DNA from: Salinirubrum litoreum
Lineage (GTDB): Archaea; Halobacteriota; Halobacteria; Halobacteriales; Haloferacaceae
Reading direction: 5' to 3'
Assembly (NCBI RefSeq): GCF_020567425.1
Contig: NZ_JAJCVJ010000003.1
Span: forward strand, 62,001 to 126,000
DNA: 64,000 nucleotides
Shown here: positions 10,170 through 16,729 of the stretch, one piece after another
Position numbering within the stretch: position 1 is the first letter of the stretch
Layout of the letters: each line of letters opens with the position of its first letter
The notes under the pieces: generated by a model
What the model was told of the DNA's origin: nothing
The model's database searches: none
Seen by the model: only the letters and a program-made list of their open reading frames with translations
Position numbers and translations under genes: made by a program

Positions 10170-11084
10170 TCACGTCTCCGAGCCGAGACCGACCGCCTCC
10201 CGACCGGGGACTCCCCGATTCGCCAGTCGCTTCGGGCCGTAGACCGCGATCAGTAGCACCGCGACCGCGAGCAGTGGGAGCATCCCCGAGATCTCCGCGA
10301 GAAGCGTCAGCGCCCCGTCCGGGACGCCGCCCGGAGCCATCGCGTCGAGGTCGGCGGGGTGGAGGACACCCATCCCGTTGACGCCGGCGTGGAACACCGC
10401 GACCGCGAGGACGCTCCCGCCGGTCCCGTTGTACATCCACGTCCAGAGCACCGACCCGGCGAGGATCGAGACGATCCACAGCAGTTGCTGGGAGAGCGGC
10501 CACCCGCCCTGTGTCGTCGCCGGGTTGAGAAACAGCGGGAGGTGCCAGCCGGCCCACGCGAGACCGACGACCCCGCTGGCGGCCAGTGCGCTGTACCGCT
10601 CTTGCAGGAGCGGGAGCATGAACCCCCGCCAGCCGAGTTCCTCCTGACCGCCGCCCCAGACGGTGCCCCACGCCAGCACGAACAGGTAGATGGCCGGCGA
10701 GGGGACGCCCCCGAGGTCGATCGGTCCACCGAACGCGACGAACAGCGCGACGCCGCCAGCGAGCAGCAGGAGTGGCAGTCCGAGCGCAGGCGCCCACCAC
10801 CGGAGGCCGATCCGCCACCGGAGGAACTGGCCGATCCACGTGCGCAGACTGCCGCCACTTGCCCGGACGACCACACCTGCGGCGACCGCGGGGCCGAAGC
10901 CGCCGAAGCCGATCAGGATCGACTGGGTCCACGAGGCTTCGAGTCCGCTTGCGAGGACGACACCCTGGACGGTCCACGTGAAGGCGTACGCGACCGCGAG
11001 AAACGCGACGAGTCTGTGGCGGTCGATCCACGCGCTGATCCCCGAGTCGGACACCGGTTCCGTGTCGTGTGTTGGTTCGGCCAT
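10170..11084 (-). CDS. CPBP-family intramembrane metalloprotease 1
   Basis: A roughly 304-residue multi-helix membrane protein of the CAAX-protease/bacteriocin-processing (CPBP, Abi) family. Motif 1 is EELGWRG (E148, E149, R153). Motif 2 is in GWHLPLF and motif 3 in FHAGVNG, together supplying the metal-binding Glu and His residues. Related proteins process prenylated or membrane peptides, and some act in bacteriocin self-immunity; the target here is unknown. The start MAEPTHDTEP was preferred to a codon 8 residues upstream. A second member of the same family lies at 15851. Confidence 0.85.
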   Translation of the reverse strand: MAEPTHDTEPVSDSGISAWIDRHRLVAFLAVAYAFTWTVQGVVLASGLEASWTQSILIGFGGFGPAVAAGVVVRASGGSLRTWIGQFLRWRIGLRWWAPALGLPLLLLAGGVALFVAFGGPIDLGGVPSPAIYLFVLAWGTVWGGGQEELGWRGFMLPLLQERYSALAASGVVGLAWAGWHLPLFLNPATTQGGWPLSQQLLWIVSILAGSVLWTWMYNGTGGSVLAVAVFHAGVNGMGVLHPADLDAMAPGGVPDGALTLLAEISGMLPLLAVAVLLIAVYGPKRLANRGVPGREAVGLGSET

Positions 11085-11169
11085 CGTCTTCGGACACCTC
11101 TCTCGCACTGTCGGTCACGCGACCGCAGTGGTCGTGTCTGTCGAATGACGGTCTGCCACATAGTCGTTG

Positions 11170-12009
11170 TTACCCGGTCTCCGCCAGATACGCCCGCGTT
11201 CGGGCCGCGAGTGCTCCACGAAACGCGCCCAGGTCGACCGTACTCTGTGAGTGGGTCAGTCGCTCGTGGTTCGCGCGAAGCACGGTCTCCAGCGTCAGGT
11301 CGTACAACGACTGAAAGGTCACCGCTCGGTCTTCGTCGGCGAGTCGCGCAGAGAGGCGGTCGAAGCGAGCCGTGGGGGCGACCTCCGTCGCGACCTCGGC
11401 CGGCGATCCGTCGACCGGCGCGACCTTACGGTCCGTCTCGACCGCCGGATTCCGGAGCAGTGCCCGCCCACCGCGCTTGTTTCGGACGACGACACCCGCC
11501 ACCGGGCCGTCGTACCACGCCGACTGCGGGAACGCGTACGACTCGGGGTCGAAGTCCCGCCCGTTCCGCTCTTTCTCCACCGCGTTCACCGGGTGCAGTC
11601 CCACCTGCTCGAAGATCTGTTCGGTCGCGTCGGGCGGCCGGAATCGCTCGCGGTCGGCCGACCACACGTCGTCCCCGAGAAACGACGGCGTGCGCTCCCA
11701 GTCGTAGTCGACACCGGCCGCGTGCATCGCCTCGCCGTAGAAGACGACCGAACTCGGGTCGTCGAGTGCCTGCCTGAGTCGGTCCCGGTCCAACCGTTCT
11801 CGGACGTGACTCACGGCGTGTTCGTACGCCGTCGGCGGATCGCCGGCGTCGAAGACGCGGGTTCGATCGCCGAACTGGATCTGGCCCGACGGCTGGAGTC
11901 GGAACCGGAGGTGGTCGCCGACCACGTGTTCGAGGAGCCAGAGGTGGCCCGTCTCGAACACGTCGTCGGGAGCGTCGGCGAGTCGTGGGATCGGAGGAGC
12001 GGCCTTCAT
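11170..12009 (-). CDS. RNA-ligase-like nucleotidyltransferase fold, motif I Lys apparently lost
   Basis: The 279-residue protein looks like a haloarchaeal relative of the Rnl2-type RNA ligases. It has a motif III-like VVFYGEAMH and a motif IV/V-like GVVVRNKRGGRALL. In active ligases motif I is E-K-x-D/N-G with the lysine that takes AMP. Here the corresponding stretch reads EHVVGDH (27-33), with His28 at the lysine place and Val30 at the Asp place. Motif IV, usually EGVVxR, reads AGVVVR. The fold assignment is inference from motifs; if right, the protein is probably not a classical ligase. It follows CPBP protease 1 on the same strand but is separated by 85 bases. Confidence 0.6.
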   Translation of the reverse strand: MKAAPPIPRLADAPDDVFETGHLWLLEHVVGDHLRFRLQPSGQIQFGDRTRVFDAGDPPTAYEHAVSHVRERLDRDRLRQALDDPSSVVFYGEAMHAAGVDYDWERTPSFLGDDVWSADRERFRPPDATEQIFEQVGLHPVNAVEKERNGRDFDPESYAFPQSAWYDGPVAGVVVRNKRGGRALLRNPAVETDRKVAPVDGSPAEVATEVAPTARFDRLSARLADEDRAVTFQSLYDLTLETVLRANHERLTHSQSTVDLGAFRGALAARTRAYLAETG

Positions 12010-12114: not shown

Positions 12115-12513
12115 TCAGGACCTCGACACCGAGTCGTCGCGGTCGGTCGCACCCTCCTCGAGACGAGAGGGGTCCAGTCGTGCGCGGTCGAGGAGCGCGT
12201 ACGCGTCCGCCGGGTCGTCGTCCTCGCGGTACGCGAACAGGCGGTCACGACGCTCGAACCGGTCGAAGAACCGCTCCCACTCGACGGGCGACGCGATCGC
12301 GCGGTCGGGATCACCGAAGACGAACGTCAGGTCGTCGGCGTCGGGGTCGCGGAGCACGGCCGGGCGGCCGTCCCGCGCCTCGACCCAGTCCCGTATCTCC
12401 TCGTGGTCGGTCGTCCAGTCGTCGTAGCTGGCGAGTGTCGGTTTGTCGGACACGGTGGCCCGTGGGAGCGCGACCCGGGTGTCGCTGGTGCTTGCGTGTG
12501 CCGGGTCGATCAC
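12115..12513 (-). CDS. Hypothetical protein coupled to the HTH regulator
   Basis: A 132-residue acidic protein of no recognised family, without membrane segments. The GTG start overlaps the stop of the upstream bat-type regulator by 4 bases (GTGA), so both are translated from one message and may work together. A block RPAVLRDPDADDLTFVFGDP suggests a small alpha/beta fold. The high Asp/Arg content is typical of haloarchaeal cytoplasmic proteins. Confidence 0.6.
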   Translation of the reverse strand: MIDPAHASTSDTRVALPRATVSDKPTLASYDDWTTDHEEIRDWVEARDGRPAVLRDPDADDLTFVFGDPDRAIASPVEWERFFDRFERRDRLFAYREDDDPADAYALLDRARLDPSRLEEGATDRDDSVSRS

Positions 12514-13169
12514 CCGTCGTCGGTCATCCCGATGAGGAGCGTGTCCTCGACGAGCGCGCCTGTCGCCCGCCGCACCCGCTCGGACATCGCCTGGTGTGAC
12601 ACGTCGAACTCCTCGGCGAGTTCGCCGAGCGTCGTCCGGCGCGGGACCGCGAACAGTCCCCGCTCGGCGGCGGTGGTCAACGCCGCGAACTGCTCCGTCG
12701 TCAAGCCGTACCGGCCGGCGGGGACCCCGTCCATCTCGCGGACGCTCTCGACCGAGAAGGAGAGTCCGTGGTCCGTGCAGAATGCCTGCATCGCCGACAG
12801 TTCGTCGCGGTCGGGGTAGATCACCCGCAGTTGCCAGCGGTCACCCTTGCCGTAGGCGTCCAACACGGTCGCGTCGTGGGTGGTGATCATTCGGAGGAGG
12901 AGTTCGACGTGGTCGACCCACTCCATCCGGTAGAGCCACTCGTCGTCCAGGTCCGCGAGGAGTTCCGTCCGCTCGGTCGACGGATCCGCGTCGAGTGCCG
13001 ACTCGACGCGCTCTCGGGTCGCACCGCGAACCCACAACAGCGGCATCACCCGCTCCCCGCCGGCGTCGACGACCCGTTCGATCTCCAGTTCCAGGCCGGG
13101 GACCGACGTGACGGCCCGACTCAGCGCGAACTCGTCTGCGGGGATCGTCCCTCGTACTATCGTGGCCAT
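12510..13169 (-). CDS. Bacterio-opsin-activator-type HTH-10 regulator
   Basis: A 219-residue transcription factor. The C-terminal HTH_10 domain carries the family sequence LTTEQFAALTTAAERGLF followed by the helix-turn-helix TLGELAEEFDVSHQAMSERV. The N-terminal two thirds form the sensor-like domain seen in many bat-related proteins without a PAS or GAF domain. The start MATIVRGTIPAD was preferred to a codon 28 residues upstream because family members begin this way. It is the first gene of a two-gene operon with the hypothetical gene at 12115. Its targets are not evident. Confidence 0.85.
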   Translation of the reverse strand: MATIVRGTIPADEFALSRAVTSVPGLELEIERVVDAGGERVMPLLWVRGATRERVESALDADPSTERTELLADLDDEWLYRMEWVDHVELLLRMITTHDATVLDAYGKGDRWQLRVIYPDRDELSAMQAFCTDHGLSFSVESVREMDGVPAGRYGLTTEQFAALTTAAERGLFAVPRRTTLGELAEEFDVSHQAMSERVRRATGALVEDTLLIGMTDDG

Positions 13170-13303
13170 GCGCGAGAGGTCTTCAGACGAGGTGATATAG
13201 CTGGTCCCCGTCGTATGGAAGTGGTAACGACACTGGGCGCGGGACAGTGCCACTGCCGGCGCTCGTCGAGGAGCGACGGAGAACGCTCGCCGACGGTCGC
13301 CGC

Positions 13304-15850: not shown

Positions 15851-16729
15851 ATGACAGTGGAGGAGACGTCGGGCGGTGTCCACGGCGTGCCCAGCGCGCA
15901 CGTCGCCGCGTTCGTCGTCGTGACGCTCGCCGTGAGCGTGATCGTCGCCGCCGTGACGATCAGCGACACCGTCTCCAACGCGACCACCGTCCCGATCATG
16001 GTCACGCCGGCACTGACGGCCATCGTCCTCCGCCGGCTTCAGGGCCGCTCTGTCCGGCAGACGGTGGTCGGTTCGCTCCGAGGGACGACGCTTCGGTCGG
16101 CGGTGTTCGCGGTCGCGTTCCCCGTCGTCTTCATCGCTACCGCCGCCGGTGTCGCACTCGCGACGGGACTCGGCAGTTACGATCCCGGCGGTGGCGTGTT
16201 CGCGTACAGCGGCCCGGTGTTCCTGTTTCCCGTCTTCCTGCTGATCGTCGGCGTCGTCACCTACGGCGAGGAATTGGGGTGGCGGGGGTACCTCCTCCCG
16301 GAACTCAGTGACAGAATCGGCCCGGTCGCGGCCACGGCCTCGGTGGGGGTCGTCTGGGCGCTGTACCACTTCCCGGCGCTGTACTTCGGCGCGCAGGCGA
16401 CCGGTCTCGGCGATCCACTGACCGTCGCTGCCATCCAGATGGGGGCGGTGTTCACCGTCGCCGCGTTTCCCGCCTCGTACTCGTACTTTCTCTCGAACGG
16501 GAGCGTGTTGCCGCCGGTGGCACTCCACCTGACGTGGAACCTGCTCAATCCGCTGGTGCTCGGCAACGTCTACACGAACGTCGAGGGGTTCGTCGCCGGC
16601 CAGGTGATCCTGATCAGCGGCGAGGGGCTGCTGGGAATCGCCGTCGGCGTCGTGCCCCTCGTCGTCGTCGCGGTGCTCGTCCACCGCCGAACCTGGTTCG
16701 GCACCGACGCGAGCGTCTCGGAGGCGTGA
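15851..16729 (+). CDS. CPBP-family intramembrane metalloprotease 2
   Basis: A 292-residue polytopic protein of the CAAX-protease/CPBP family. Motif 1 is GEELGWRGYLLPEL (E140, E141, R145), motif 2 is in ALYHFPALYF and motif 3 in ALHLTWNLLNP, giving the three metal-binding motifs in order. About eight hydrophobic segments are visible. It shares family and active-site pattern with the protein at 10170 but little else by eye. It lies between the cupin and the PEP-hydrolase-like gene and converges with the latter. Confidence 0.87.
   Translation: MTVEETSGGVHGVPSAHVAAFVVVTLAVSVIVAAVTISDTVSNATTVPIMVTPALTAIVLRRLQGRSVRQTVVGSLRGTTLRSAVFAVAFPVVFIATAAGVALATGLGSYDPGGGVFAYSGPVFLFPVFLLIVGVVTYGEELGWRGYLLPELSDRIGPVAATASVGVVWALYHFPALYFGAQATGLGDPLTVAAIQMGAVFTVAAFPASYSYFLSNGSVLPPVALHLTWNLLNPLVLGNVYTNVEGFVAGQVILISGEGLLGIAVGVVPLVVVAVLVHRRTWFGTDASVSEA

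Follow-up and report, generated by a model that had tools for sequence, protein, structure and literature searches.

Covalent nucleotidyltransferases, a textbook family, are defined by the lysine of motif I. In ligases, the basic residues of motifs IV and V and their surroundings, and those of the C-terminal domain, face the RNA or phosphates. In the Naegleria ligase NgrRnl, Lys170 is reported to carry the AMP, Asp172, Glu227 and Glu312 to bind the metal via water, and Lys326 to touch the AMP phosphate (PMC9931718). Phe119 of T4 Rnl2 is described as close to the adenine (PMC3149579), and the K97A mutant of MthRnl, an archaeal Rnl3 ligase, as dead in steps 1 and 2 (PMC3514331). The halovirus HGTV-1 is reported to carry two Rnl2-family ligases (PMC8651126). 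No report of a pseudo-RNA-ligase family was found in the open-licence papers searched.

Here, we describe a gene in a stretch of 64,000 nucleotides from Salinirubrum litoreum (contig NZ_JAJCVJ010000003.1, positions 62,001 to 126,000; hereafter, the window). Judged from alignments and a predicted structure, it is probably a pseudo-RNA-ligase gene, whose product would have an Rnl2-type fold, would no longer have the metal site or the capacity for lysine adenylylation, and would be maintained as a folded but inactive protein.

RESULTS

Gene and predicted fold

The gene (Table 1) showed strong codon periodicity, with a GC content by codon position of 0.753/0.477/0.835. A Pfam search with the window protein returned RNA_ligase (PF09414) alone, at 25 bits, slightly lower than the cut-off of 27 bits. 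A sequence search of the PDB gave no relevant match, so the fold was assigned by comparing a predicted model with known structures. The AlphaFold2 model, built with 93 family sequences, had a mean pLDDT of 95.7. In VIA-align, its residues 1 to 192 matched T4 Rnl2 (1s68) with a Z score of 17.4 and an rmsd of 2.7 Å over 184 aligned residues, indicating that the Rnl2 nucleotidyltransferase fold is present in the predicted model. The Z scores were about 17 for NgrRnl and 15.1 for the trypanosome editing ligase REL1, and they ranged from 11.9 (2vug) to 14.6 (5d1o) for Rnl3 ligases, compared to 17.4 for Rnl2. Unlike the VIA-align order, the top Foldseek match was 2vug, an archaeal Rnl3.

The C-terminal part of the window protein is probably the Rnl2 C-domain. 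Full-length 2hvq superposed on the model with 248 aligned residues and an rmsd of 5.8, and Arg215 was aligned with T4 Rnl2 Arg266 by MAFFT. In hhalign against T4 Rnl2, the C-terminal domain was the only part to align, with a probability under 1%, and PF18043 was matched in one of the 93 family members.

Table 1. Features of the window discussed in the text. Members lacking Lys28 are counted in the 178-row family alignment.
Feature	Position	Strand	Basis or remark
Candidate pseudo-RNA-ligase gene, 279 aa + stop, ATG start	11170-12009	-	ORF
Predicted nucleotidyltransferase (adenylyltransferase) domain, Rnl2 type, residues 1-194	11428-12009	-	VIA-align
Motif I Lys position, His28 (CAC)	11926-11928	-	Alignment
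Motif I Asp position, Val30 (GTC)	11920-11922	-	Alignment
Motif Ia Arg49, retained	11863-11865	-	Alignment; retained in 37/129 members lacking Lys28
Motif III Glu93, retained	11731-11733	-	Alignment; retained in only 9/129 members lacking Lys28
Motif IIIa adenine-stacking Phe position, Asp113	11671-11673	-	Aligned with T4 F119
Motif IV Glu position, Ala171 (GCG)	11497-11499	-	Alignment
Motif V, Arg182 retained, Lys184 position Leu	11458-11466	-	Alignment
Helical C-terminal domain, probably Rnl2 C-domain, residues 203-278	11176-11403	-	Model helices
CAAX-protease-like (Rce1-like) membrane protein	10170-11108	-	Neighbour gene
BAT/HTH_10 transcription regulator	12510-13253	-	Neighbour gene
Second Rce1-like gene	15851-16729	+	

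Active-site residues of the window protein

The preliminary description of this DNA had pointed to EHVVGDH (residues 27-33), FYGEAMH and PVAGVVVR, and had concluded that the motif I lysine and the motif IV glutamate are replaced while motifs III and V are kept. Its coordinates, strand and residues were right, FYGEAMH being residues 90-96 and PVAGVVVR residues 169-176, and both replacements were borne out by the codons and by an alignment with intact family members and T4 Rnl2, in which Glu27, His28 and Gly31 fell on T4 Glu34, Lys35 and Gly38. Motif III is indeed retained, with Glu93 on T4 Glu99. Motif V has kept its arginine and lost its lysine. Two equivalences were set by pattern, namely Arg49 with T4 Arg55, where the MAFFT alignment had a gap, and position 171 with T4 Glu204, where MAFFT misplaced T4 motif IV. 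The catalytic losses thus number at least five (positions 28, 30, 113, 171 and 184), instead of the two noted before. When NgrRnl Lys170, Asp172, Glu227, Glu312 and Lys326 were equated by motif order, an assignment of our own, with window positions 28, 30, 93, 171 and 184, the window protein had His, Val, Glu, Ala and Leu, so that one of the five catalytic or metal residues is left.

The window protein shares with T4 Rnl2 (PF09414) the predicted nucleotidyltransferase fold, Glu27 and Gly31 of motif I, Arg49, Glu93, Asp114, Arg182 and probably a C-terminal helical domain with the Arg266 equivalent, whereas it lacks the motif I lysine, the motif IV glutamate, the adenine-stacking phenylalanine and the motif V lysine. 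By its predicted fold it is an Rnl2-family protein, but by the aligned catalytic features that define an RNA ligase it is not one. The predicted fold and the residue losses together support the earlier view of an RNA-ligase fold devoid of ligase chemistry.

A family with intact and degenerate members

Homologues were present in 197 of the 391 sampled genomes of the class, a patchy distribution, and matches were obtained in 14 of the 148 sampled genomes of the phylum, 13 of them from the same order. The window protein matched members in other genera with E values of 1e-90 to 1e-102, indicating full-length homology. The alignment comprised 181 non-identical members plus the window protein. Four rows were removed, namely L096 (a virus), L087 (motif I start absent, trimmed ORF), and L006_14 and L022_4, which belong to a separate paralogue type with intact motifs, and 178 rows were left. 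Both Lys28 and Glu171 were intact in 40 of the 178 members, hereafter the intact members. The preliminary description had expected EKxDG and EGVVxR in most haloarchaeal homologues, and this did not hold, as only these 40 have them.

Lys28 was absent from 129 of the 178 members (hereafter, K-less members), with Leu, Tyr, Trp, His, Ala, Arg, Gln, Met and others in its place. None of the 129 retained Glu171, position 171 being Ala in 117, Lys in six, Tyr in three and Val in three. Nine members had kept Lys28 without Glu171 (eight with Ala171, one with Lys171), and the reverse was found in 0 of 178. Among 30 loci added later and standing outside the 178-row count, several of which are loci already counted, 26 rows were legible at both positions, and three had both residues and 23 neither. 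Position 171 was Glu in all 40 intact members, as well as in HGTV-1 and the L006-type relatives; position 113 was Phe in 38 of the 40 intact and 16 of the 129 K-less members; and the motif V lysine at position 184 was present in 31 of the 40 intact members. In 58 of the 129 K-less members, none of Lys28, Asp30, Glu93, Glu171 and Lys184 was left.

Intact and degenerate versions occurred side by side in six genera, and never together in any of the aligned genomes. Haloferax gibbonsii was among the carriers of a degenerate version. The intact members, such as those on Haloterrigena plasmids, were about 50-58% identical to the window protein over the whole length and mostly occurred as one copy per genome; they differed from it in having EKxDG, EGVVxR and mostly RAKLLHP. 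On the plasmid sequences examined, intact versions were annotated as RNA ligase family protein, and degenerate versions as hypothetical protein or not at all. In seven members (L027, L035, L037, L046, L100, L102 and L017), the motif IV glutamate is replaced by Lys rather than Ala (KGVVxR); four of them form a genus group in which the motif I position is Leu as well. L006_14, L022_4 and L234_10 represent a second Rnl2-like type of haloarchaea, which is about 345 aa long and has intact motifs (EKFDGSSFRF and EGVVVRSD). In L006 and L022, it shares one short locus with an intact member of the present family.

Among more distant relatives, the RNA ligase gp217 of halovirus HGTV-1 was 24.6% identical to the window protein over 94% of the query, but its motifs are intact (EKLDGGNFRF and EGLTFK). 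Archaeal Rnl3 ligases (Pab1020, MthRnl) belong to the same superfamily and differ in size, at about 370-410 aa. The Rnl3 copy of S. litoreum itself is intact: it lies elsewhere in the genome, unlinked to the window (G000:C4:61893-62432, L093), as an ORF of 410 aa with EEKLNGANVRV and EGVVVK, so the cell does possess an RNA ligase.

Order and number of losses

Since no K-less member has Glu171 while nine members keep Lys28 without it, Glu171 was apparently lost before Lys28 or along with it. In a tree built with the trait columns masked, there were at least 10 changes in Lys28 and at least 11 in Glu171, with many branches weak, and the loss counts depended on the cost given to regain (5 to 20 for Glu171 and 16 for Lys28). 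Approximately unbiased (AU) tests were run on a smaller set of 29 rows with better support, in which the main degenerate rows form a clade. Joining L116/L169, a pair from genus g4, to this clade was rejected (p 0.011); joining the window protein (p 0.149) or genus g19 (p 0.149) was not. As the g4 pair cannot join the main degenerate clade, there were at least two independent losses. In that one genus, the sisters L057 (intact) and L116/L169 (degenerate) stand side by side.

The window protein was placed among intact members in the masked-column tree (64-row set, SH-aLRT 97). As the best trees put it next to intact members or within them, a further loss in its lineage, separate from that of the main clade, is likely but unproven. 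An earlier AU value of 2e-9 against joining the window protein to the main degenerate clade is not relied on, as the clade status of the main rows was unchecked there. A paired test of joint loss of Lys28 and Glu171 had five supported pairs, with which p 0.05 was out of reach.

Conservation and selection on the remaining protein

Columns invariant in at least 95% of the intact members were taken as conserved, which gave 66 non-pocket and six pocket columns. The median retention of the 66 non-pocket columns in K-less members was 88%, compared to 0-51% for the six pocket columns (p 4.7e-5). The window protein retains 61 of the 66 and two of the six, respectively; the Fisher p of 0.0016 for this difference is biased, because the protein was picked for two of the six pocket losses. 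When conservation was scored across all other members, the window protein agreed with all 22 columns at the level of 95% or more, and with 27 of the 31 at 85-95%. Glu27, Gly31, Arg35, Glu147, Pro161, Ser163, Gly172 and Arg245 were retained in 97% or more (rounded) of the K-less members. Of 18 conserved basic positions, 12 still had a basic residue in at least 75% of these members.

Pairs of K-less members had dN/dS values of 0.16-0.53, with a median of 0.30 (n = 62, not independent) and of 0.27 in 19 roughly independent pairs, and pairs of intact members had values of 0.08-0.38, with a median of 0.18 (n = 25, not independent). These figures describe the K-less group and not the window gene alone, whose best identity is 58% and which has no close relative. 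Given the retained non-pocket columns and these dN/dS values, the K-less members seem to form a pseudo-ligase family that is being maintained, though a few genomes have broken copies. Like pseudokinases and other pseudoenzymes, it combines a retained fold and lost catalytic residues with purifying selection; for the window protein, the sign of such selection is the retained columns. Copies broken by internal stops, frameshifts or truncation were seen in up to seven of the 40 genomes that had weak or split matches and were searched again (G009, G014, G114, G131, G151, G063:C9 and G357), suggesting that the gene is dispensable in places.

Those broken copies would also be expected of a ligase on its way out, which had dropped its chemistry when the function was no longer needed and was eroding more slowly elsewhere, and so would the patchy presence and the higher dN/dS of the K-less than of the intact pairs, which also fits relaxed constraint. 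We consider this rather unlikely, as there are deep K-less clades with intact ORFs, dN/dS is well under 1, the eight residues named above are near-invariant, and the pocket has been lost far faster than the remainder.

Five further columns, His98, Arg148, His187, Val199 and Asp200, were conserved in most intact members and retained in only 2-21% of the K-less members. As they have been lost almost as fully as the catalytic residues, these residues may be tied to the ligase activity. The window protein retains Arg148, Val199 and Asp200.

Possible remaining chemistry

A ligase restricted to step 3 would seal RNA that is already 5'-adenylated and would have no need of the nucleophilic lysine. The K97A mutant of MthRnl is reported to have full step 3 activity and the K35A mutant of T4 Rnl2 partial activity (PMC3514331); a Palaeococcus Rnl3-type ligase is reported to combine strong adenylation with weak sealing (PMC12153264), and S. 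litoreum has its separate intact Rnl3-type ligase. However, the motif IV glutamate, a metal ligand, has been lost in all 129 K-less members, apparently before the lysine, and Asp30, Glu93, Phe113 and Lys184 are often or mostly gone too. With the metal-binding glutamate and mostly also the adenine-stacking residue lost, sealing of pre-adenylated RNA is highly unlikely.

There is very little probability, too, that the enzyme has stayed active with a migrated nucleophile, for which His28, Lys146 and Lys178 were considered. The preliminary description had named His28, but position 28 varies freely, with His in 11 of the 129 K-less members, scattered and accompanied by Tyr, Asp, Gln, Ala or Lys in the same genera, and most of the partners that bind metal and phosphate have been lost, so His28 was rejected as the new nucleophile. 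Migrated lysines are reported in the kinases WNK1 and POMK (PMC10211241). Position 146 is the sole one with Lys in more than half of the K-less and less than 30% of the intact members (0.53 vs 0.12), but it is Arg or Lys in both groups, already in 0.97 of the intact members, so a shifted lysine was rejected as well. Lys178 is near invariant but equally present in intact members, and the adenine-stacking and metal residues are lost.

Genomic context

In the window and at 62 homologue loci with flanks of up to about 5 kb, no conserved gene neighbour was found, except for synteny near gyrB within one genus and small clade-level groups. Neither the BAT/HTH_10 nor the Rce1-like neighbour of the window gene was conserved beside homologues at these loci. 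A link to viruses or defence systems was rejected, as there was no PHROG match and no PADLOC family. HGTV-1 was the only match to the window protein in the phage set, and a short-pattern scan of IMG/VR found no relative. A dead subunit regulating the cell's Rnl3-type ligase or a viral Rnl2 by pairing with it could draw on the intact Rnl3-type gene in the same genome and the intact relative in HGTV-1, but is scarcely credible, as the gene has no linkage to an Rnl3-type or viral Rnl2 gene.

DISCUSSION

A non-catalytic RNA-binding role, as raised in the preliminary description, is the best remaining reading of the alignments. Most likely, the window protein can no longer adenylylate a lysine but has kept the ability to bind RNA. 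The tRNA-nick sensor named in the preliminary description is more specific than these data support. The ancestor of this accessory haloarchaeal family would have been an intact ligase, from which several lineages would have lost the motif IV glutamate and then the motif I lysine, with Asp30, Glu93, Phe113 and Lys184 presumably lost to differing degrees across lineages. The basic residues Arg35, Arg176, Lys178, Arg182, Arg215 and Arg245, which lie within or close to motifs IV and V or in the C-terminal domain, remain. Because the catalytic residues are lost and the basic residues retained, we favor binding of RNA ends or nicks without chemistry, by which breaks would be shielded, marked or withheld rather than sealed.

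Other metal-dependent enzymes often bind nucleic acids more tightly once an acidic metal ligand is removed. The change of Glu171 to Ala or Lys would remove a metal-binding charge, and a gain in binding of this kind would fit the order proposed here, with Glu171 as the first residue to change and with uncharged or basic residues as almost its only replacements. Haloarchaea may even have repeatedly made an accessory Rnl2 RNA ligase grip breaks without sealing them, with the change of Glu171 to Ala or Lys as a selected first step, and could thereby deny tailed haloviruses such as HGTV-1 the repair of cut tRNA; we regard this extended proposal as quite unlikely.

A natural pseudo-ligase family would offer a clean test of the ligase fold without its chemistry, and L057 and L116/L169 allow a direct comparison of binding and activity.
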